This document shows, in pieces, positions 1,325-59,779 of a stretch of 64,000 bases of DNA. The notes under the pieces were generated by a model. That model saw only the letters and a program-made list of their open reading frames with translations, was not told the origin of the DNA and ran no database searches. The position numbers and the translations under genes were made by a program. This stretch comes from Epinephelus fuscoguttatus (taxonomy: Eukaryota > Chordata > Actinopteri > Perciformes > Serranidae), in contig NC_064757.1 in NCBI RefSeq assembly GCF_011397635.1, positions 35,005,839-35,069,838 of the forward strand, written 5' to 3'. The first letter of the stretch is position 1; every line of letters starts with the position of its first letter.

Positions 1325-1700
1325 AATTATTGTTCTCAAAAAACGTCATGTATAGTATGTTAAAAAAAAATGTCATAGTATAGTATGATAAAACAAATCA
1401 TAATATAGTATGATAAAAATAGTCATAGTATTGATAAAAAAAAATCTCGTGCTAAACTATGATATATTGTGTTTTATAATTTAAAAAGGGTCATCATAGA
1501 GTATGATGAAAAAAGTCATAGTATAGTATGTTAAAAAAAGTCATAGTCATAGTACAGTGTGTTAAAAAAAATCATAGTATTTTATGATAAAAACAAATCA
1601 GTTTAGTATGTTATAAAACTGTATGTTAGAAAACTAATAAAAACATCATAATGTAGTATGTTGAAAAAAGTCATAGTATAGCATGTTGAAAAAAACTGAT
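1325..1700 (-). repeat. Minisatellite, left arm (arm A)
   Basis: Degenerate copies of a motif reading roughly TCATAGTATAGTATGTT followed by a run of A recur every 30-40 bases. This is the reverse complement of the motif in the large arm starting at 1956, so arm A faces it head-on. Copies are more diverged than in the centre, as expected at the edge of a minisatellite. Confidence 0.8.
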
Positions 1701-1711
1701 AAAAAAAAAAA

Positions 1712-1764
<53 letters not shown>
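1712..1764. repeat. (TA)n microsatellite
   Basis: An A-run is followed by about 50 bases of nearly pure TA dinucleotides, interrupted once near 1725. It lies between arm A of the minisatellite and about 190 bases of unrelated sequence. Confidence 0.95.
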
Positions 1765-1766
<2 letters not shown>

Positions 1767-1955
1767 CTATATTGACTTTTTTTGACTCACACACTTAAAT
1801 TTGCACTAAAATTCACATCAACACAACATCATGTGAATTCACTGAATTTTTTTTCATTGTGGTCTTTTTAGTTGTTTTTCCAGCACCTTAACCAAGACTT
1901 GGCTGGGTTGAGCGGTGGTCCTCCCTCAGTTTCTAGACTTGCTATAGGGTGAAAT

Positions 1956-4900
1956 TTTTATCAGTTTTTTTCTCGACATGCTATACTATGACGTTTTTGT
2001 GGTTTTTTCGACATGCTATACTATGACGTTTTTGTGGTTTTTTTCGACATGCTATACTATGACGTTTTTGTGTTTTTTCGACATGCTATACTATGACTTT
2101 TTTCGACATACTACATTATGACGTTTTTATCAGTTTTTTCAACATACTATACGATGAAGTTTTTGTGTTTTTTTCCGACATGCTAGACTATGATGTTTTT
2201 GTCAGTTTTTTCGACATGCTATACTATGATGTTTTAATCATTTTTTCAACATGCTATACTATGACGTTTTTGTGTTTTTTTGACATGCTATACTGTGACG
2301 TTTTTATCAGTTTTTTCAACATACTATACTATGACGTTTTTGTGTTTTTTTGACATGCTATACTGTGACGTTTTTATCAGTTTTTTCAACATACTATACT
2401 ATGACGTTTTTGTGTTTTTTTGACATGCTATACTGTGATGTTTTTATCAGTTTTTTCAACATACTATACTATGACGTTTTTGTGTTTTTTTGACATGCTA
2501 TACTGTGACGTTTTTATCAGTTTTTTCAACATACTATACTATGACATTTTTGTGTTTTTTTTAACATGCTATACTATGACGTTTTTATCAGTTTTTTCAA
2601 CATCCTATACTATGACGTTTTTGTGTTTTTTGACATGCTAGACTGTGACGTTTTTATCAGTTTTTTCAACATACTATACTATGACGTTTTTGTGTTTTTT
2701 TGACATGCTATACTATGACATTTTTATCAGATTTTTTCGACATGCTATACTATGACGTTTTTATCAGTTTTTTCAACATGCTATACTATGACGTTTTTGT
2801 GTTTTTTGACATGCTAGACTGTGACGTTTTTATCAGTTTTTTCAACATACTATACTATGACGTTTTTGTGTTTTTTTGACATGCTATACTGTGACGTTTT
2901 TATCAGTTTTTTCAACATACTATACTATGACATTTTTGTGTTTTTTGACATGCTAGACTGTGACGTTTTTATCAGTTTTTTCAACATACTATACTATGAC
3001 GTTTTTGTGTTTTTTTTGACATGCTATACTGTGACGTTTTTATCAGTTTTTTCAACATGCTATACTATGACGTTTTTGTGTTTTTTTGACATGCTATACT
3101 GTGACGTTTTTATCAGTTTTTTCAACATACTATACTATGACGTTTTTGTTTTTTTGACATGCTATACTGTGACGTTTTTATCAGTTTTTTCAACATCCTA
3201 TACTATGACGTTTTTGTGTTTTTTGACATGCTAGACTGTGACGTTTTTATCAGTTTTTCAACATACTATACTATGACGTTTTTGTGTTTTTTTGACATGC
3301 TATACTGTGACGTTTTTATCAGTTTTTTCAACATGCTATACTATGACGTTTTTGTGTTTTTTTGACATGCTATACTGTGACGTTTTTATCAGTTTTTTCA
3401 ACATGCTATACTATGACGTTTTTGTTTTTTTGACATGCTATACTGTGACGTTTTTATCAGTTTTTTCAACATACTATACTATGACGTTTTTGTTTTTTTT
3501 AACATGCTATACTATGACATTTTTATCAGTTTTTTTCGACATGCTATACTATGACGTTTTTGTCAGTTTTTTCAACATACTATACTATGACATTTTTATC
3601 AGTTTTTTTCGACATGCTAGACTGTGACGTTTTTATCAGTTTTTTCAACATACTATACTATGACGTTTTTGTGTTTTTTTTGACATGCTATACTGTGACG
3701 TTTTTATCAGTTTTTTCAACATACTATACTATGACGTTTTTGTTTTTTTAACATGCTATACTGACATTTTTATCAGTTTTTTTCGACATGCTGCACTATG
3801 ACGTTTTTATCAGTTTTTTCAACATACTATACTATGACGTTTTTGTTTTTTTAACATGCTATACTATGACATTTTTATCAGTTTTTTTCGACATGCTGTA
3901 CTATGACATTTTTATCAGTTTTTTTTTAACACGCTATACTATGACATTTTTATCAGTTTTTTTCGACATGCTATACTATGACGATTTTATCAGTTTTTTC
4001 GACATGCTATACTATGACATTTTTGTGTTTTTTCGACATGCTATAATATGACCTTTTTATCAGGTTTTTCGACACACTATACTAGGACATTTTTATCAGG
4101 TTTTTTCGACATGCTATACTATGACGATTTTATCAGTTTTTTCGACATGCTATACTATGACATTTTTGTGTTTTTTCGACATGCTATAATATGACCTTTT
4201 TATCAGGTTTTTCGACACACTATACTAGGACATTTTTATCAGGTTTTTCGACATGCTATACTATGACATTTTTATCAGTTTTTTTCGACATGCTATACTA
4301 TGACGATTTTATCCGTTTTTTCGACATGCTATACTATGACATTTTTGTGTTTTTTCGACATGCTATAATATGACCTTTTTATCAGGTTTTTCGACACACT
4401 ATACTAGGACATTTTTATCAGGTTTTTCGACATGCTATACTATGACTTTTTTCAACATACTACATTATGACCTTTTTAGCAGTTTTTTCGACATACTACA
4501 TTATGACGTTTTTATCAAATTTTTCAACATACTATGCGATGAACTTTTTGTGTTTTTTCAACATGCTATACTATGACGTTTTTGTCAGGTTTTTCGACAT
4601 GTTATACTATGACGTTTTAATCAGTTTTTTCGACATGCTATACTGTGACGTTTTTATCAGTTTTTTTGACATACTATACTATGACGTTTTTATCAGTTTT
4701 TTTCAACATACCATACTATTAAGTTTTTGTGTTTTTTTTCGACATGCTATACTATGACGTTTTTGTCAGTTTTTTCAACATGCTATACTATGACTTTTTT
4801 CGACATACTACATTATGATGTTTTTATCAATTTTTTCAACATACTATACTATGACGTTTTTGTGTTTTTTGACATGCTCTACTATTAAGTTTTTGTCAGT

Positions 4901-5840
4901 TTTTTCGACATGTTATACTCTGACGTTTTAATCCGTTTTTTCGACATGCTATACTGTGACGTTTTTATCAGTTTTTTCAACATACCATACTATTAAGTTT
5001 TTGTGTTTTTTCAACATGCTATACTATGACGTTTTTATCAGGTTTATCGACACACTATACTATGACCTTTTTGTCAATTTTTTTCGACCTGCTATACTTT
5101 GACTTTTTTCGACATGCTATACTATGACGTTTTTGTGTTTTTTCGACATGCTATACTATGACTTTTTTTGACATGCTATACTATGATGTTTTGATCAGTT
5201 TTTTCGACGTGCCATACTATGATGTTTTTGTGTTTTTTCGATATGCTATACTATGACTTTTTTCAACTTCGGATACTGTGACGTTTTTATCAGTTTTTTT
5301 CGACATGCTATACTATAACTTTTTTCAACATGCTATCCTATGACGTTTTGATCAGTTTTTTTGACATGCTATACTATAACTTTTTTCAACATGCTATACT
5401 ATGACCTTTTCATCAGTTTTTTTCGACCTGCTATACTTTGACTTTTCTAGACATACTATGCTGTGACGTTTTCATCATTTTTTTCGACATGCTAATCTAT
5501 GATGTTTTTATCAGTTTTTTCGACATGCTACATTGACTTTTTTCGACATAGTATGCTATGACGTTTTTATTCGTTTTTACCACGTTATACTTTGACTTTT
5601 TCGACATTCCATACTATGACCTTTTTATCAGTTTTTTCGACCTGCTATACTTTCTTTTTTCGACATTCTATACTATGACGTTTTCATCAGTTTTTTCGAC
5701 ATGCTATACTATTACATTTTTATCAGTTTTTTCAACATGCTATACTATGACTTTTTTTCAACATACCATATTATGACATTTTTATCAGTTTTTTCGACAC
5801 AGTATACTATGACGTTTTGATCAGTTTTTTATGTATAGTA
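1956..5840 (+). repeat. Minisatellite, main forward arm (arm B), about 35-bp units
   Basis: The unit reads GACATGCTATACTATGACG followed by TTTTTATCAG and a T-run ending in C, 34-36 bp in all, repeated about 110 times without a long break. Variants change one or two bases (ACTGTGACG, AACATACTAT, or TTTTTGTG in place of TTTTTATCAG). The core CATGCTATACTATG is close to its own reverse complement. The many Phe/Asp/Tyr-rich open frames across the arm are a by-product of a unit length often near a multiple of three and are not genes. Confidence 0.95.
2282..3560 (+). repeat. Higher-order 70-bp dimer block inside arm B
   Basis: Two monomer types alternate here: a 36-bp type (GACATGCTATACTGTGACG, then TTTTTATCAG) and a 34-bp type (AACATACTATACTATGACG, then TTTTTGTG). 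The 36-bp type starts at 2282, 2352, 2422 and 2492, an exact 70-bp period. The copies are more alike than those in the flanks, indicating recent expansion of a dimer rather than of single units. Confidence 0.85.
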
Positions 5841-5869
5841 CGTATAGTGACGTATATAAAACATCTAGT

Positions 5870-6645
5870 ATAGCAAGTCTAAAAAAGTCACTATAGCATG
5901 TTGAAAAAAACTAATAAAAATGTCATAGTATAGCATGTTGAAAAAAACTAATAAAAACGTCATAGTATAGCATGTCGAAAAAAGTGAGAAAAACATTGTA
6001 TAATATGTCGAAAAAACTGATAAAATGTCATAGTATAGTATGTCGACAAAAGTCATAGTATAGCATGTCAAAAAAATTGATAAATATGTCATAAAATAGC
6101 ATGTCAAAAAAAGTCGTAGCATAGTATGTCAAAACAAACTGATAAAAACGTCAGAAAAAACTGATGAAAACGTCATAGTATAGCGTGTCGAAAAAACTGA
6201 TAAAAACGTCATAGTATAGTATGTTGAAAAAACTGATGAAAACGTCATAGTATAGTATGTTGAAAAAAGTCATCGCATAGTATGTCAAGACAAACTGATA
6301 AAGACATCATAGTATAGTGTGTTGAAAAAACTGATGAAAACGTCATAGTATAGCATGTCGAAAAAACTGATGAAAACGTCATAGTATAGTGTGTCGAAAA
6401 AAACGCATAAAAACGTTATAGTATAGTATGTCGAAAAAATCATAGTATAGACTTTCGGAAAAAACTGATAAAAACGTCATGGTATAGCATGTCGAAAACA
6501 ACTGATGAAAACGTCATAGTATAGTATGTTGAAAACAAGTCATGGTATAGCATGTCGAAAAATACTGATAAAAATGTCATAATATGGTATGTTGAAAAAA
6601 CTGATAAACGTCATAGTATAGTATTTCGAAAAAAGTCACAGTAAA
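5870..6645 (-). repeat. Minisatellite, reverse arm (arm C, part 1)
   Basis: The same unit as arm B appears in reverse complement (CTGATAAAAACGTCATAG, then TATAGCATGTCG and an A-run). The orientation changes between about 5830 and 5880, where a short degenerate segment (GTATAGTACGTATAGTGACG) separates the arms. Arms B and C therefore form a very long inverted repeat. Confidence 0.9.
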
Positions 6646-6794
6646 AAACAAAACAAGTGGCAATGGATCCATAGATTATAAAATCAAACATTTCAGTAAT
6701 ATACAAGAAAAGTTGATAAAATGACTAGACAAAATCATAATTAGAAAAACTAGGTATACAATAATCACAATAAAAGTATCAGCAATATGTGTTT

Positions 6795-7150
6795 CTCGAT
6801 TAAATCAGACTGAGTATGCTAGCTTGAAAAGGGGTGTTTTCAGACGGGATTTGAAAGTGGAAAGGGAGTCAGTATTGCGAATGTTGTGCGGGAGAGAGTT
6901 CCATAGGCGAGGGACAGAACGGCTGAATGCTCTAGAACCCATGGTAGTCAGGCGGGCAGATGGTGATGTGAGTTGGAGTGCAGAAGAAGATCAAAGGGTA
7001 CGGGAGGGTGTGTAGATGTGAAGGAGTTCAGACAGGTACAAAGGGGCTTGATTGTGAAGGGCCTTGAAGGTGAGAAGCAGAATCTTGAAATCAATGCGAT
7101 ATTTAACAGGAAGCCAGTAACGTTGCTGGAGAACAGGAGTGATATCATCC
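6795..7150 (-). pseudogene. LINE ORF2 C-terminal fragment (Rex1/CR1-like)
   Basis: Read on the minus strand from about 7145 down, this encodes the C-terminal tail typical of fish non-LTR retrotransposon ORF2. Recognisable blocks are LPVKYRIDFKILLLTFKALH, then YTPSRTL, then MGSRAFSRSVPRLWNSLP and FKSRLKTPLFKLAYSV. The frame has a TGA stop just after PSRTL, so it is a dead copy. It lacks the endonuclease and reverse-transcriptase core. It sits as an island of normal-complexity DNA inside the minisatellite, which resumes on both sides. The family assignment rests on remembered motif patterns. Confidence 0.75.
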
Positions 7151-7185
7151 ATGGAGGGGGTTCTGGTTATGATCAGGGCAGCTAA

Positions 7186-8250
7186 TACTACATAGTATAG
7201 TCTGTTAAAAAACTGATATAAACATCATAGTATAGCATGTCAGAAAAAAGGCATACTATAGTACTGTATGTCGAAAAAAACTGATAAAAAAGGACATAGT
7301 ATAGCATGTTGAAAAAAACTGATGAAGGCATCATAGTAAAGTATGTAGAAAAAAACTGATAAAAACCTTGTATGTCGAACAAACTAATTAAAACATAGTA
7401 TATGTCGGAAAAAAGTCATAGTATAGCATGTCGAAAAAAATGATAAAATCGTCATAGTATAGTATGTCGAAAAAACTGATAAAAACGTCATAGTATATAG
7501 CATGTCGAAAAAACTGACGTTTTTATCAGTTTTTTCGACATGCTATAGCCTACTATGACGTTTTTATCATAGTATATAGCATGTCGAAAAAACTGGTAAA
7601 AACGTCATAGTTATAGTATGTTGACAACACTGAAAAACACGTCATAGTATAGCATGTCGAAAAAACTGATAAAAATGTCATAGTATAGCATGTCGAAAAA
7701 ACTGATAAAAACGTCATAGTATAGCTTGTCGAAAAAACTGATAAAAACGTCATAGTTATAGTATGTCGACAACACTGAAAAACACGTCATAGTATAGCAT
7801 GTCCAAAAAAACTGTTGAAAAAATCATAGTATACCATGTTGTATAGCATGTCAAAAAAAAACTGATAAAAACGTCATCGTATAGCATGTCAAAAAGACTG
7901 ATGAAAAAAATCATAGTATACCATGTTGAAAAAACTGATAAAAACGTCATACTACAGCATGTCGGAAAAAAATGATAAAAATGTTGTAGTATAGCATGTT
8001 GAACAACCTGCTAAAAAAAAAAAAAAGTCATAGTACAGCATGTCGAAAAATCTGATAAAATGTCAGTACAATATGTTGAAAAAATTCAGTATGGTCTGTT
8101 GAAAAAACTGATAAACTACATAGTATAGTATGTTGAAAAAAGTTACAGTTTGTCGAAAAAATTCAGTATAGTATGTATATTGTATTATGGTAAAAAAAAA
8201 AAAGTCAGTCAGTATAGTTTACTAAAAAAATGTCATTGAAAAGTCAGCAT
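7186..8250 (-). repeat. Minisatellite, reverse arm (arm C, part 2)
   Basis: Reverse-orientation units resume after the LINE island and become increasingly degenerate towards 8250. A short segment at about 7515-7575 flips back to the forward orientation, giving a local palindrome in which CTGACG and TTTTTATCAG are flanked by mirror copies of the unit. Confidence 0.85.
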
Positions 8251-9820
8251 AGAATGTCATTTATTAAAGCGTATATTTTGTAAAATTTTCATCATATAGA
8301 ACACCATAAAAAGTCATCAGATGCCAATAAAAGTCCTCATTTGGTGAGGCATCATGTTATGCATGCATTATATTTCAATAGCTTACATTTAATACATTAG
8401 TCAACTACTGTGTTACGCTGCATCTGTGCTCCTCTTAATAAGTGTCTTTGAGGTCGGGAAAGCCAGTTCATAGAAAGTTACTGGTTTCATGGCAAATAGT
8501 GGCACCTGACAAGTGTTGTGGGAATTTCATCATCAATAATAGTGCTATTAGCTAAAGTTAGAAATTTTGTTGGATAACACAACAGTTTAATGTGAAAGTG
8601 AGATGGAATACATATTGTTTTATGTGTTGATTTTTCCTGTGAGCACTCAGTCATGTGCTGGTTAATTATCTGTCATTAAAATAGAAATATCTAATGTGTG
8701 AATAAAGTAGGAAATTGTCCAATAAGTCCAATTAAATCTGGGATAGGAGACCTGATTAAGATTAGGGAATCCAGTAAACACTGATGTGTTGAAGCTTTTC
8801 CATCTTGTGTGATCCATTTAGTCAGTAGTGTTCCACAAGTCATCACTGGGTGGCAGTGTTGATTGAAATATATTTAAAACCTGCCTTCATACAAAACATG
8901 TACAAAGTTAAAGACAAAAATGTTTAATCCAGACATTTTTTTCTACACACAAAACAGTTTAGATTAGAAAATAATTAATTTAGAATTAAGACTGTACTCA
9001 TCTACTTGATCAAACAAATGTCATAAAACACATTAAAACATTTTCATACAACAGGTGCATATTAACAAAAGCCTACAATAAACTACCTCCTATGTTTTGT
9101 CATAGTATTTGGAAAAAAAAAAAAAAGGAAAGTCAAGGCAACTATTTTACACAACAGAATTGAGGCACCAAGGTCATTTTATAGATGATGGGAGTCTAGA
9201 AATTAACTGTACTCAACTTAAAATACAGTATTTCAGAGGTTTGTTACGGAGCGGCCTCGGTGTCGACGGGTGCACTTATTTTGCGACTTGGAAAAGCAAA
9301 AGTTGCACCTTTGGTCCATTAGAACAGTTCAAGTGATCCCTCTAAGAAGGGTGCGATCAGCCACGGCGCCCCGTCCCAGTGTCCACCTCACAGACTTAAA
9401 CACTCATTCGTATTAAGTCTGGAGCTCAGGGCTGTTACATTAGGAAATCAACGAGTGCTTGAGAGCTCTCTTGCAGCCTTCTGAGCCCCAACTTTACACA
9501 CTTCTTGCCCTGCTGTAGGCGCTAAACTTTTACAGAGCACAGTACTGATTTGTTGTTCCCCAATTTGATCAAACACTTTAATACAGAGGCCAATTTTTCT
9601 GTAGACAAGTGAGCAAAAGTCTCCATTTTATAAAACTACATCTGAAAAATGACATCACACTTTTATGGTGACAAAAATGCTTCTGTCCCAGCTAACGTGA
9701 TTTCACCAGGTAGTGTTTCAACCCTCCTGCTTTCACATTTCTCACTGAACAAACTGGTGTTAAAAATCTGTGAGGTTTTACAGCTCAGGCCGGACATTGT
9801 GACTAGACCACAGGGAGCAC
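8251..9820. other. gldc 3' flank and probable 3' UTR
   Basis: No coding exon or clear transposon is visible. The part nearest 9820 is expected to be the gldc 3' untranslated region, transcribed on the minus strand. A frame at 9109-9336 has no recognisable motif and is treated as chance. Confidence 0.5.
9577..9582 (-). terminator. Possible gldc polyadenylation signal (ATTAAA)
   Basis: On the minus strand the hexamer ATTAAA lies about 240 bases beyond the gldc stop codon. It is the most common variant of AATAAA. I found no AATAAA on this strand nearer than 8260-8265, so this is the better-placed of two weak candidates. Confidence 0.3.
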
Positions 9821-38627
<28,807 letters not shown>

Positions 38628-42381: not shown

Positions 42382-43429
42382 ATGGCAAGAACCAATCAGC
42401 TAACTAAAGAAAAACGAGTGGCCATCATCACTTTAAGAAATGAAGGTCAGTCAGTCCGGAAAATTGCAAAAACTTTAAATGTGTCCCCAAGTGGAGTCGC
42501 AAAAACCATCAAGCGCTACAACGAAACTGGCACACATGAGGACCGACCCAGGAAAGGAAGACCAAGAGTCACCTCTGCTTCTGAGGATAAGTTCATCCGA
42601 GTCACCAGCCTCAGAAATCGCAAGTTAACAGCAGCTCAGATCAGAGACCAGATGAATGCCACACAGAGTTCTAGCAGCAGACCCATCTCTAGAACAACTG
42701 TTAAGAGGAGACTGCGAATCAGGCCTTCATGGTCAAATAGCTGCTAGGAAACCACTGCTAAGGAGAGGCAACAAGCAGAAGAGATTTGTTTGGGCCAAGA
42801 AACACAAGGAATGGACATTAGACCAGTGGAAATCTGTGCTTTGGTCTGATGAGTCCAAATTTGAGATCTTTGGTTCCAACCGTGTCTTTGTGAGGCGCAG
42901 AAAAGGTGAACGGATGGATTCCACATGCCTGGTTCCCACTGTGAAGCATGGAGGAGGAGGTGTGATGGTGTGGGGGTGTTTTGCTGGTGACACTGTTGGG
43001 GATTTATTCAAAATTGAAGGCACACTGAACCAGCATGGCTATCACAGCATCCTGCAGCGACATGCCATCCCATCCGGTTTGCGTTTAGTTGGACGATCAT
43101 TTATTTTTCAACAGGACAATGACCCCAAACACACCTCCAGGCTGTGTAAGGGCTATTTGACCAAGAAGGAGAGTGATGGAGTGCTGCGGCAGATGACCTG
43201 GCCTCCACAGTCACCGGACCTGAACCCAATCGAGATGGTTTGGGGTGAGCTGGACCGCAGAGTGAAGGCAAAGGGGCCAACAAGTGCTAAACACCTCTGG
43301 GAACTCCTTCAAGACTGTTGGAAAACCATTTCAGGTGACTACCTCTTGAAGCTCATGGAGAGAATGCCAAGAGTGTGCAAAGCAGTAATCAGAGCAAAGG
43401 GTGGCTATTTTGAAGAAACTAGAATATAA
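42382..43429 (+). pseudogene. Tc1-like DDE transposase, one frameshift
   Basis: It begins MARTNQLTKEKRVAIITLRN. The N-terminal part has the paired-type helix-turn-helix DNA-binding region (SVRKIAKTLNVSPSGVAKTI) and the GRPR-like hook in RKGRPRVTS. Catalytic residues are visible in WSDESKFEIFG (first Asp), FQQDNDPKHTS (second Asp) and SPDLNPIEMVWGEL (Glu), with DD34E-like spacing. The reading frame shifts near 42712: the first frame runs to a stop at 42745-42747 and the second carries the catalytic domain to 43429. Relative to the family a 2-base loss is likely. Otherwise the protein has the usual length of about 340 residues. Confidence 0.9.
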
Positions 43430-43868: not shown

Positions 43869-44640
43869 TTAGTGAGTACAGCCTCCACCTACCTGTATGC
43901 ACTCCCAACAACGACTGGGTATGCTGCTGATGAGCTGGTGGATGGTGTCCTGAGGGATCTCCTCCCTAACCTGGATCAGGGCATCACTGAGCTCCTGGAC
44001 AGTCTGTGGCGGTACTTGGTGGTGATACATAACGTCCCATAGGTGTTCAGTTGCATTAATGCCTTCGTCATCAAGGAACTGTCTACACACTCTGGCCACA
44101 TGAAGCTGGGCATTGTCCTGCACCAGGAGGAATCCAGGAACCACTGCACCAGGAGGAACCCAGGAACCACTGCACCACCTTAAGGTCTGACAATTGCTCT
44201 AACAATTTCATCCTGTTGTCTTACAGCAGTCAGGGTACCGCTGGCTGTGACATAGAGGTCTGTGCGACCCTTCAAGGATATGACTCCCTAGACCATCACT
44301 GACCCAACCACCAAACCAGTCATGCTGGGTTGTGTTACAGGAAGCATAACGTTCACCATGACTCTTTCAGGCCTGTCACATGTGCTCAGTCTGAACCTGC
44401 TCTCATCTGTGAAGAGAACTGAACGCCAGTGGCGAATCTGCCAATTCTGGCGTTCTCTGGTGAATGCAAGTTGAGCTGCACGGTGCTGGGCTGTGAGCAC
44501 AGGTCCCACTAGAGGACATCGGGCCCTCATGTCAAACTCATGGAGTCTGTTTCTCACAGTTTGGTCAGAAACATGCACACCAGTAGCCTGCTGGAGGTCA
44601 TTTTGTGGGACTCTGGCAGTGCTCCTGTAACCCAGGTTAA
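43869..44640 (-). pseudogene. Decayed second Tc1-like transposase
   Basis: Minus-strand pieces include VHVSDQTVRNRLHEFDMRAR, HWRSVLFTDESRFRLSTCDR (first Asp) and FLLVQDNAQLHVARVCRQFL (second Asp), then TEHLWDVMYHH (Glu). Only 22 residues separate the second Asp from the Glu, against about 34 expected, so a dozen codons including the usual SPDLSPI block are lost. A 25-26-bp tandem duplication at about 44124-44176 adds a second break. It is a different family from the neighbouring intact element. Confidence 0.85.
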
Positions 44641-44849
44641 AAATCAGCATTAAAAGACAGTTGTGTATTAAAAAACAATAAAACAAAAACAAAGATGTTT
44701 GGGTTAAAAACAGTAAATTCATAGTGAAAAAAATCAATTCATTAAATACAGTGTTTTGGTTAATGATTAAAAACAGATGTTTACCTGAAAGAAGAAATGG
44801 AATTGTAATAAAATGATTTATACAGAACTTTAATTTGAAAGAGGCGGGT

Positions 44850-46268
44850 TGGAGTCCCGGTCTGTCAGCAACCGGAAAGCTCAAGGGTTAGATGGATTCC
44901 TGGCTGACTTTTATAAAAAGTTTTCCCACCAACTTACTCCTTTGTTATTAGACATGTTTAATGAGACTTTTAAATATTGTGTTATCTCCTCACATGTCCA
45001 AAATTGCTGAAATGGTTATATCTTTAGATGTGGAGAAAGCCTTTGATCGGGTTGAATGGGACTGTTTGTTTTCTGTTTTGGGGAAATTTGGCTTTGGGTC
45101 TAAATTTATTTCTTGGATACAACTTTTATACTCTGCCCCATCCACTTGTGTGACAACTAACTTTCAAAGGTCTGAATATGTCCCCCTATCAAGAGGGACC
45201 CGCCAGGGTTGCCCAGTGTCTCCCCTGCTCTTTGCCATAGCAACAGAGCCTCTTTCCATTGCTCTCAAATCTTCTTCATGTTTCACTGGTATTCTTAGTG
45301 CTGGACTGGAACATAGAGTGTCTCTCTATGCTGATGACCTGTTGCTATATGTCACCAACCCAGTTAGCTGTGTAGATGATATTTTACAAATCTTGACAAC
45401 TTCTGGATCATTCTCTGGTTATAAGTTAAACATCAGTAAAAGTGAGTGTTTTCCGGTAAACAAAGCAGCTAAACTGCTCTGGTTTGTGCCCCTCTAGCTT
45501 CTTGTTATCCTAGTTATATCAAAAACCCAATTGTACTTTCCTCTTTGAAAATTTGTAAACAATTCAGGCAACACTTCAAACTTTCAGCACCCATCCCATT
45601 AAGCCCTATTTGCAACAACCATTTCTTTACCTCCTCCAATTCAGACACAGCTTTCACTTTGTGGAGAGAGAGAGGCCTGGTTCTTTTTTCACATTTATAT
45701 TCCAAGGGCTTATTTGTTACATTTAATGATCACTGTGTTAAATATAATTTACCCCAATCTCATATGTTTCAATTCTTCCAAGTGCGCAATTATGTTCGCA
45801 CACACTTCACATCTTTCCCTCAATCTCAAATGGGGTCTCTTATCACCGAGGTGCTCTCTCTTCCAATGGCTCGTAGTAGGATTTCAGTATTATTTGACCT
45901 CATATCATCTTCGAATGTGACCTCCCTTGTGGGGGTCAGGCAAAGTTGGGAAAGGGAGCTTGGCTTTGATTTGACAGATGAGTGGTGGAAAGAGGCACTG
46001 ATCAGGGTTAATTCTACATCTTCTTACACTCGTCTTGGTTTAATTCAATTTTAGGTCCTCCACAAAATTCATTTCACAAAAAACAGACTTAATAATTGTT
46101 AAACTAAGCCCTAAATATCAGGTTGGAACCCTGCCCACTGATAGCCATATTTGGTGTACATCGTACATCAACTAGTCTCAAAAAAGTGGGGAAACAGCTG
46201 TGAATCAACTTTGTATCTTGTATTTGATACTTGTGAAATGCTGGTCTCAAAAAAAAAAAAAAAAAAAA
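44850..46268 (+). pseudogene. Tx1/L1-like LINE reverse-transcriptase remnant with poly-A tail
   Basis: Blocks in order: KAQGLDGFLADFYKKFSHQL (44870-44935); VISLDVEKAFDRVEWDCLFS; SRGTRQGCPVSPLLFAIATE; VSLYADDLLLYV with the catalytic YADD; then, after a frameshift near 45485, a C-terminal region ending QSWERELGFDLTDEWWKEAL. The RT segment between LDMFNE and the LLNIVLS block is deleted, fusing two parts out of frame at about 44960. It ends in a run of A at 46250-46268, as in L1-type elements. The endonuclease is missing. Confidence 0.88.
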
Positions 46269-47590: not shown

Positions 47591-50500
47591 ATGGGTTTGA
47601 TGAGCTGGTTGTGGGAACATCAGTTTTTGATGCACCAGTGTTTTTCACTTCCATTCGCATTTCTGTTTTATTTCCTTGCTCAACGGGGATATCTGTCCTT
47701 GACATACAGGTATGTAATTACAAATCTATTAATTGACTTTTGTTATTAAACCACACATTAAAAGCAATATGTTAAGTGACTAGTGTATTATATGGCCTTA
47801 ATACTCTAAAATTAGTCACAATTTTCTGTGAAGCCATGATCTGTTCTATCTATTCGGATTTTAATTTCAATAGGTTCATGAAGTTTTATATGTAATTCAA
47901 ATGAAATTTGAATTAATGAAATTTGAATTAACCAGTCCAAATAGCACAACCACAATATTTAACAGGGGATACAATACTGGCGAAACTTTTGTTTATTTGT
48001 TTTTAACATTGATTCATACTCGTGTTTCTAATTCATATCTGTTTTTTAGTTTTCATCTAATTGTATTTTGTACTTCTCCCATAAAGCAAGTTGGCAAATG
48101 TTGTTGTTTTTAAATACATTATTTAAAATAATTTGACTTTACAAATCTTAAATAAGTCACTTCACACTAACTTATCAATTGAAGTACAACTAACATTTAT
48201 TTTCATTATTAATTAATCTGCAGATCAATTTCCTGATTAATCGTTTGGTCTATAAATGTCAAAAAATAGTGGAAAATGAGTCCTTGTTGATGTCATTATA
48301 TCTTGTTTTGTCAGATCAACAGTCTAAAACCGACGGATATTCAGTTTATAATTATGTTAAACAAATAAGAATGCTTGAGAATCTGCTTAAAGAGCATCCT
48401 ATATGGGGCACCGGTGGCTTAGTGGTGGAGCAGGCGCCCCATGTGTAGGGCTGTTGCTGCGGCGGCCCGGATTCAGCTCCAGCCTGTGGCCCCTTACTGC
48501 ATGTCACTCCCTCTCTCTCTCCCCCCTTCATGCTTGTCTGTCCTGTACATTAAAGGCTAAAAGGCCCCAAAAAATATCTTTAAAAAAAACAGAACATCCT
48601 ATATACTAATCAAATAGTTACTGATTAATTGTCTATATATCAATTGACAAACTTATCAACTAATTGTTGCAGCTGTGATTGTCAACATGAGTTTCTATCT
48701 GCAGGTACCTGTATGTTTGTCTTGGAGGATGCGTCCTGGCGGTCGTCACGATGGGCATCTACAGCTTGCTCCTGTTCACCTCAACTTTCCTCTTTATCCT
48801 GCTTGTTTGCTCTGTGGATCCTAGCTGTGTCCACGCCTGGGTGTTTGGTGTCCAGATGTTGTGGCAAACCTTCTGGCACCTGCTTATACAGTACAGGGAA
48901 TACTACCTGCATGAGCCTGTCAGCATCAGGTACCGATCTTAATTCACTTAACTGGCATGTAAACTGATACCTTCATGCTTTTCCAGAGGGTCCAATATAA
49001 ATTATGAATTTATGTATTAACTGATAGGTCTGGTAATACTTCATATTTTCTTATTTTCAACAAATCTCATGAAAAGACCAAAACCAACAATGAACTGTTC
49101 CTAATAACAAGTATTACTTGATATCATTTATTCCTCTCCACCATAGAGCTCAATTGTTGTACAAAAACTACAAAAAGCACATCAGTGACCAACACTGTTG
49201 CACTACATGGTATTTTGCTTTGTTACCATGAACATGAGCACATCCTTCTGCTGCTGTACACAAAAAAATGCATCACTCCTGTTTGTTTTTAAGGAGTCAC
49301 ATCTTCAGAGTACCACAGACAAGCTCAGGAAGTCTGAAGAAAAGACTGAGACAAACTAAAATGTTGTAGGCATTGGACTTTTCATGCGATTTGTAATGTC
49401 TGACTGGTCCTTTAAAGGGGCAGTTCATCCCAAAATTTAAATTATGTATTTTTCCTGTTGTGCTAATTATTAACACAGATCGTTTTGTTATGAGTTGCTG
49501 AGTGTCAGCCGTAGAGATGTCTGCCTTCTCTCCAATATAATGGAAATAGATGGTACTCGGTTTGAGGTGCACAAAGCACCAAAAAATATATATTTGAAAA
49601 ACTCAACAACAATGTCTCTTTCCAGATATCATGACCCAGTTCCTCAAGATAATCCACAGACCTTGTTGTGAGCAGTTTCATTTAGAAGCTATTTCCTTTC
49701 TACCAAACTACACCCACCAAATGTATCACTGCACAGAAGGAGGGGTCCATCTACTCTTGAACCAGAGGCTTGCCCTGATGTAACCACAAGATGTAAACAT
49801 TAATGGGTCCTCCTAAGCTGAGCTGTAACGTTAGCTGGGTCAATGGTCATGATTTCTGGATAGAGACACTAATGTAGTTAATGGGTGGAAGTACAACAGG
49901 ATGGAAAATCGTATTCTGAAAAACAAATCTGAATATTACATGAAGGCATAACATTAAAATAAGCCCGCTGCATACCAAAAACAACATTTCAGTGGATATA
50001 ATCAAGAGAAAAAACATACAGTGAAAATGACCTTCCATTTAGTATGAAACCATTTTCCACCAGCTGGAATACAGCTTTTCAGTTTGACAAAACAATCTCC
50101 CCTTAAGATCCACAGTAGCTGTACTGGAGCTTTCAGTCACATCACACTGTCCTCATCACTGTCCAGTGCCTTCTATTCAACACAGAGTTGTAGATGTTTC
50201 GTGACTCTGAGCACCTCTGTGATTTCTCATCCATGCTGAATGTTTGTCAGAAATTGTCAGCTGCCATCAACTTTGTGACATGATAGAAAGCTCCATTACA
50301 GCGACTAAATGGACCTTAAAATGGAAATTTTAATTTTAATATTCAGCATTTCCCCTTATAGTGTTTCCAAGTGGTATTATTGTTGTTGTTATTATTGTCT
50401 CAGAGCCTAACAAACACCACAGTTTAAAGTCACTTCAGTTGCTCTACTGTCCGCCAATTCAACTAATGGAGATAGTAATTGCAGAGAACCTACGCTGATT

Positions 50501-56016: not shown

Positions 56017-59779
<3,763 letters not shown>

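Follow-up and report, generated by a model that had tools for sequence, protein, structure and literature searches.

Ordinary unequal crossing-over expands a tandem repeat in one direction and makes no direction switch, as an initial annotation of the locus studied here had argued and as we agree. How, then, does a tandem array come to run in two directions? The question is raised by an AT-rich array in the grouper Epinephelus fuscoguttatus, whose genome assembly of about 1.05 Gb (1.047 Gb) comprises 26 contigs. What we call the window is the whole 64-kb stretch that was analysed (C6:35005839-35069838). All positions below are window positions unless another locus is named.

Layout of the array

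The array spans about 1.34-8.27 kb of the window. The repeat unit had been annotated as 35 bp, which we correct to 36 bp; it is accompanied by 25-bp short units and by variants of 34-35 bp. Units in the T-rich direction are labelled forward (F) and those in the A-rich direction reverse (R), and the limits and identities of the arms were taken from a wraparound alignment against one 36-bp consensus. Tandem Repeats Finder (TRF), a core scan and the wraparound alignment all give the order R-F-R, that is, an F arm of about 3.9 kb with R units on either side. Allowing at most 5 mismatches in 20, the core scan found 147 cores in the whole 64 kb, every one of them within 1371-8116. The TRF run, which had been proposed as a check, reports periods of 36, 70-73 and 106 among its rows.

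From left to right, the array begins with a reverse arm on the minus strand (1338-1705), seen by all three methods and by the initial annotation. It can be aligned over 1504-1705 (6 units, 70.9% identity) and is degenerate from there back to about 1338. The change from R to F falls at an (AT)26 tract (1713-1764, from TRF) that can form a hairpin at 1712-1765. At the left edge of the F arm a genome search identified a rearranged piece of a dispersed repeat (1790-1935), which the first ten or so bases of the arm overlap. The forward arm itself (1926-5830, plus strand) holds 114 units with 86.5% identity to the consensus, in line with the 3.9 kb annotated earlier. It ends in a degenerate F-to-R junction (5831-5880), followed by a proximal reverse arm of 23 units (5880-6645, minus strand; aligned part 5880-6634, 82.3% identity), a 0.55-kb non-array insert (6645-7190) and a distal reverse arm of 27 units that fades rightward (7191-8265, minus strand; aligned part 7191-8141, 80.6% identity). 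The 1.8 kb of reverse repeats annotated earlier are split by this insert into two arms.

In all, the array changes direction at least four times: near 1.71-1.76 kb, near 5.85 kb, and at either edge of a lone inverted unit (7518-7569). The AT skew, calculated in 120-bp steps, is +0.10 to +0.20 at 1321-1800, -0.26 to -0.51 at 1921-5760 and +0.21 to +0.38 at 5881-6720, and its changes of sign coincide with the arm boundaries obtained from the wraparound alignment. An array of about 6 kb with a flip near 5.85 kb, as first described, is consequently recovered by the core scan, the alignment, TRF and the skew alike.

The F arm is not uniform. Its blocks at about 2240-4450 are homogenised, with within-block identities of 0.871 and 0.866; the other three F blocks have 0.677-0.755. 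Two dimer variants, TTTTTGTGTTTT (27 copies) and TGTGACGT (20 copies), are found in F, and the three R arms contain no copy of either.

The unit core had also been described as near-palindromic, with cruciforms possible at two scales. The palindrome is real but imperfect: in the core 14-mer, 5 of the 7 positions pair, a degree of pairing also found in 888 of the 54,986 14-mers at 9001-64000. Cruciforms remain conceivable on paper at both scales, but at the scale of the unit they would be weak, the whole 36-mer folding at -1.5 kcal/mol, a value equalled or bettered by 13 of 200 shuffles.

Setting and interrupting elements

On the minus strand, a peptide encoded at about 9.82-9.96 kb corresponds to the final part of human glycine decarboxylase (E = 2.7e-23), which places the array about 1.5 kb past the end of the gldc coding sequence. 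Nothing in the analysis points to a function of the array.

The insert at 6645-7190 has, on the minus strand, a frame whose translation resembles the C-terminal part of a LINE reverse transcriptase. It gave no Pfam match and no similarity to the open reading frame at 45545-46054; its edges share no word of 6 bases or more, and no target-site duplication was found there. The dispersed repeat at 1790-1935 has 21 matches in the genome, which represent the window itself and 16 other places, and it is probably a transposable element. Seven of these 16 places were read over 0.9-1.0 kb each, and none of the seven contains an exact satellite core. One copy of this repeat (L039, C22:14304900-14305800) has its 28-base start duplicated in inverted direction.

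Several other features were seen in the window. The segments 145-270 and 49023-49158 are 76% similar in opposite directions, and presumably represent a dispersed repeat. At 34418-34535 lies an imperfect inverted repeat, perhaps a small mobile element, whose 53-bp arms have 4 mismatches and enclose a 12-base loop; it outscores the other three hairpins that the search at this setting gave for the window. Remnants of Tc1-like transposases (DDE_3, HTH_Tnp_Tc3_2) and a reverse-transcriptase fragment cluster at 42656-43429, 44288-44884 and 44961-45497. Further, a 316-codon open frame at 50784-51734 matches MBOAT acyltransferases (E = 3.7e-19), and there is a weak UbiA match at 56719-57339, under the curated cut-off (24.1 vs 34.2 bits). 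Rfam gave no match at its gathering thresholds. Neither did IMG/VR, the GTDB genomes, phages or plasmids, as expected for collections without fish.

Kinship with Lca_38 and abundance

Lca_38 has been described as a pericentromeric satellite of the Asian seabass, Lates calcarifer (PMC4833346). In a cyclic alignment its published 38-mer FISH probe scores 78 against our consensus unit. None of 500 single-base shuffles reaches this score (best 35), and the best score at 9001-64000 is 31. By this resemblance the array unit is related to Lca_38, and we treat the array as part of an Lca_38-like dispersed satellite. The two are alike in unit sequence and in forming AT-rich tandem arrays, while they differ in that the unit of the window is 36 bp and its copy adjoins a gene, whereas Lca_38 is a 38-mer and pericentromeric. 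The passages of PMC4833346 on Lca_38 considered here mention no direction changes. Our literature searches, most of which were aimed at other questions, found no report of such changes in the Lca_38-like family; judging by titles, the Asian seabass study alone among the papers listed dealt with a fish genome.

The family forms tandem arrays of 36-39-bp units and is abundant in the genome. A strict two-core pattern has 20,984 matches in the whole genome, 10,840 forward (control 0) and 10,144 reverse (control 1). Among the two-core matches listed, all of them on C1, the units are 37-40 bp long, which includes the 38-39-bp form of the family, and their spacers look closer to Lca_38 than the spacers of the window do. 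A DNA search of the genome with the R arm gave at least 253 matches; those among the matches listed lie on 11 contigs.

Direction changes elsewhere in the genome

The initial annotation had called for a genome-wide search for the unit, and the search shows that it is inverted at other places too. From 28 loci marked among the listed matches of the R arm we read 22, namely 20 ten-kb stretches and two shorter ones. The sample is biased, as the two shorter loci, and also L016 and L017, were picked with opposite directions already visible. Thirteen of the 22 loci are unidirectional and nine contain both directions.

Using stricter cores and neighbours at most 160 bp apart, 12 of 2516 adjacent pairs are flips (7 F to R, 5 R to F), distributed over 7 of 23 loci when the window is included; this count leaves out the inverted unit at 7.5 kb and changes across wide gaps. 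Three of the 12 come from L031, a locus fetched because both directions already showed, and the flip of L019 lies among very degenerate units. With a neighbour distance of 110 bp there are 11 flips in 2496 pairs at 6 loci, the 5.85-kb flip of the window exceeding that distance.

Exact patterns for close opposite cores, searched genome-wide, have 15 F-to-R matches (control 3) and 6 R-to-F matches (control 0), counted by pattern alone, whether inside an array or not. Such patterns miss diverged flips, among them the window's own at 5.85 kb. The match at C14:14914058 is the flip seen in L025. Set against the 20,984 same-direction matches, which were scored with a stricter core, the 21 opposite matches are rare. 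Flips in the Lca_38-like family are real, recurrent and rare, and since they occur at other loci the direction switch is no peculiarity of the window. By eye the junction sequence differs at each of the close opposite-core matches, which suggests that the flips arose independently. At C6:27530517-27530580 an R-to-F and an F-to-R match overlap; this is one inverted unit amid reverse units.

Not all direction changes need have one origin. In L013, L014, L024 and L032 the spacer identities indicate that arms of different subtype are united: for L013 the identity is 0.64 between the arms vs 0.83 and 0.81 within them, while the right arm of L014 offers four spacers only. Some direction changes of the family would accordingly be neighbouring separate arrays. 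At 7150-9130 of L024 the opposite arrays flank apparent coding exons, so that part of a gene lies between them. In one C10 neighbourhood, 2.3-kb inverted copies with 96% similarity (L020 6929-9201 and L021 2173-4433) lie beside satellite arrays.

The lone inverted unit near 7.5 kb

Two of the direction changes lie close together within the distal reverse arm, around one unit of opposite direction. Folding of the region (7477-7569) gives arms at 7477-7517 and 7526-7569 around a loop at 7518-7525. The pairing of these flanking arms extends over 41 bp, interrupted by a single 3-nt bulge, and leaves a loop of 8 nt. The surroundings fold at -42.1 kcal/mol, compared with a shuffle mean of -10.7 (z -12.5). 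The window has just two copies of the variant CATAGTATATAGC, at 7489 and 7568, and they stand on either side of the inverted unit; a short template switch with return would be expected to produce such an arrangement. Inspection by eye also shows a TGA/TCA microhomology at both edges.

Described models include four-point short-range template switching (PMC7954356), and an inverted unit between two direct copies of CATAGTATATAGC has the form that this model would predict. The two symmetry scores of the unit, 72 and 66, are equalled or exceeded in 57 and 94 of 1000 random joins, respectively. The best match of the inverted unit is found at 7648-7702 (score 76), the adjoining neighbour scoring 73. 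A small-scale fold-back is a plausible origin for this unit.

Origin of the 5.85-kb switch

If the R arm had been copied from the F arm by fold-back, the sequences on the two sides of the 5.85-kb axis would be expected to mirror each other. Stretches of 100, 200, 400 and 700 bases from the start of the R arm were aligned with their mirror place in F. The scores are 0, 79, 233 and 492, compared with means of 20.6, 123.3, 317.6 and 592.8 for other F windows, and 289 of 310, 288 of 302, 278 of 285 and 249 of 260 F windows, respectively, score at least as high as the mirror place. At these lengths no mirror-image similarity exists across the axis.

The symmetry of the junctions points the same way. 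At 5.85 kb it is 28, a value reached by 819 of 1000 random F/R joins and by 929 of 1000 joins from the same locus. Among the 14 junctions scored, 11 have a symmetry that at least 342 of 1000 random joins reach, and the best three are reached by 43-109. The best junction of L031 has a symmetry of 74 (47 of 1000), whereas ten junctions, those other than the 5.85-kb one, the inverted unit and the best of L031, are reached by 342-893 of 1000. On the question whether a junction lies at a short interrupted inverted repeat, the inverted unit and this L031 junction are borderline.

We also compared the units of the two directions. For the F units at 4450-5835 and the R units, mean identity within directions exceeds that between them by 0.003, and 205 of 1000 label shuffles give a difference as large; nearest neighbours favour the same direction (0.64 vs 0.50; 10 of 1000). 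When the whole F arm is taken, direction separates the units both in mean identity and in nearest neighbours (2 and 0 of 1000), which we ascribe to later expansion. Near the junction the identity of the spacers is 0.65 between the arms vs 0.67 and 0.66 within them, that is, the arms are of one subtype here.

Flips lie among more diverged units: for 11 flips the value is 1.68 vs 1.24 core mismatches, which 41 of 5000 random sets reach. However, 649 of 5000 sets drawn from the same loci are as high, so the excess is mostly a property of the loci. Hairpins number 3 in 96 kb of arrays and 3 in 121 kb of the rest, which is much the same density, the mask having assigned the 7.5-kb hairpin to the non-array rest.

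Taken together, the mirror, pool, junction-symmetry and divergence tests favour an inversion over a fold-back duplication. Both had been put forward by the initial annotation; of the two, fold-back replication at 5.85 kb is weakly supported, with its mirror alignment below the mean and its symmetry lower than that of most random joins, and an inversion inside the array is the reading that we prefer.

Discussion

With moderate confidence we propose that part of an array was turned round after its units had diverged, and that some of the turned part later expanded. There would initially have been a single array of the dispersed Lca_38-like satellite beside gldc, with all units in the R direction. 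Inside this array, after it had diverged, some 4.1 kb (approximately 1.71-5.85 kb) would have been inverted. Most likely this took place by recombination, or by a template switch, between oppositely directed units, and isolated inverted units such as the one at 7.5 kb could furnish the partners. Later, the part of the inverted segment at about 2.2-4.45 kb would have grown through ordinary unequal exchange; two interspersed repeats, both probably mobile elements, would also have been added to the array. The R units outside F on both sides, together with the common pool of units near the junction, fit a single inversion. As the dimer variants are absent from R, the expansion either postdates the direction change or stayed on one side of it. 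At the left boundary the (AT)26 tract and the dispersed repeat obscure the picture, and it is from the order of the arms that we infer one inversion behind both big changes, at 1.71-1.76 and 5.85 kb, its mechanism and the sequence of events being likewise proposals.

A fold-back (snap-back) template switch at a replication fork, by ODIRA or the four-point route, with later turnover erasing the mirror symmetry, is a somewhat unlikely cause of the big switch. Replication models able to make such junctions have been published (PMC10766183, PMC7954356), but our controls do not single out those of PMC10766183. The 7.5-kb inverted unit, with its 41-bp arms, 8-nt loop, flanking pair of CATAGTATATAGC and TGA/TCA edges, speaks for this kind of event, as do near-perfect hairpins in L013 (9906-9954, 22-bp arms, loop 5) and L025 (6055-6094, 18-bp arms, loop 4). 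However, F and R units pair wherever they meet, and the random-join control removes most of the support that junction hairpins give: those of L013 and L025 are among the 11 of 14 junctions that are no more symmetric than random joins. Moreover, the inverted unit is matched better elsewhere than by its neighbour, and at 5.85 kb, where fold-back should have left mirror arms, there are none. That two independent arrays of one family came to lie head to head, as seems to have happened at the four loci with arms of different subtype, is quite improbable for the window, where the arms by the junction share one subtype and R flanks F on both sides.

Tandem arrays are hard to assemble, and mis-joining had been named as a possible cause of the flip; the corresponding rival is a misjoin or a chimeric read behind the 5.85-kb change. 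The window contains no Ns, the units at the junction are degenerate, and the same assembly has other flips with different junctions. A chimera of the fold-back kind is disfavoured, as it would yield identical mirror arms, which are absent; a misjoin of another kind stays as a less likely option, and we rate an assembly artefact as a whole highly improbable. Inverted tandem arrays also resemble Foldback and TU elements, in which case the locus would be a transposon with long inverted ends made of tandem repeats. This is hardly conceivable here, for both outer ends run in the R direction and copies have no ends in common. At the settings used, the non-array parts of the window have no similarity to the 22 other loci that were read. 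Non-array stretches are shared by L011 and L013, by L013 and L020-L021, by L016, L018 and L027, and by L018 and L025, with no end common to all, and the longest words common to the two ill-defined ends of the array have 6 bases.

Direction switches over several kb are already known from satellites, namely in Tribolium and in human alpha satellite, the latter with a monomer of 171 bp. The macro-dyads of Tribolium are opposite subarrays of several kb with highly conserved inversion sites, and predominantly two subarrays per array (PMC13081366). Opposite multi-kb subarrays inside one array are also met in the window, but by eye our junctions vary from site to site. Further, where two subarrays tending to equal length are the rule in Tribolium, 13 of our 22 loci are one-way and the arms of the window are unequal, 3.9 vs about 1.8 kb. 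In human alpha satellite, inversions and insertions of mobile elements gather in diverged parts of arrays (PMC9549924), and the window too has flips and probable mobile-element insertions amid diverged units; in contrast, alpha satellite is centromeric and the satellite studied here is short and dispersed.

The inversion that we favour leaves room for a wider idea, which we think unlikely: the dyads of the unit might let replication switch strands, making the satellite prone to repeated and independent turning, with inverted units as seeds of multi-kb inversions. If so, a dispersed fish satellite would show a gradation from one inverted unit up to whole inverted arms. Across the Lca_38-like family direction changes recur, although rarely, and an array near a gene is tied to a family that in another fish has been described as pericentromeric. 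The sites, ranging from single inverted units to arms of several kb, form a natural series on how tandem arrays gain inversions.
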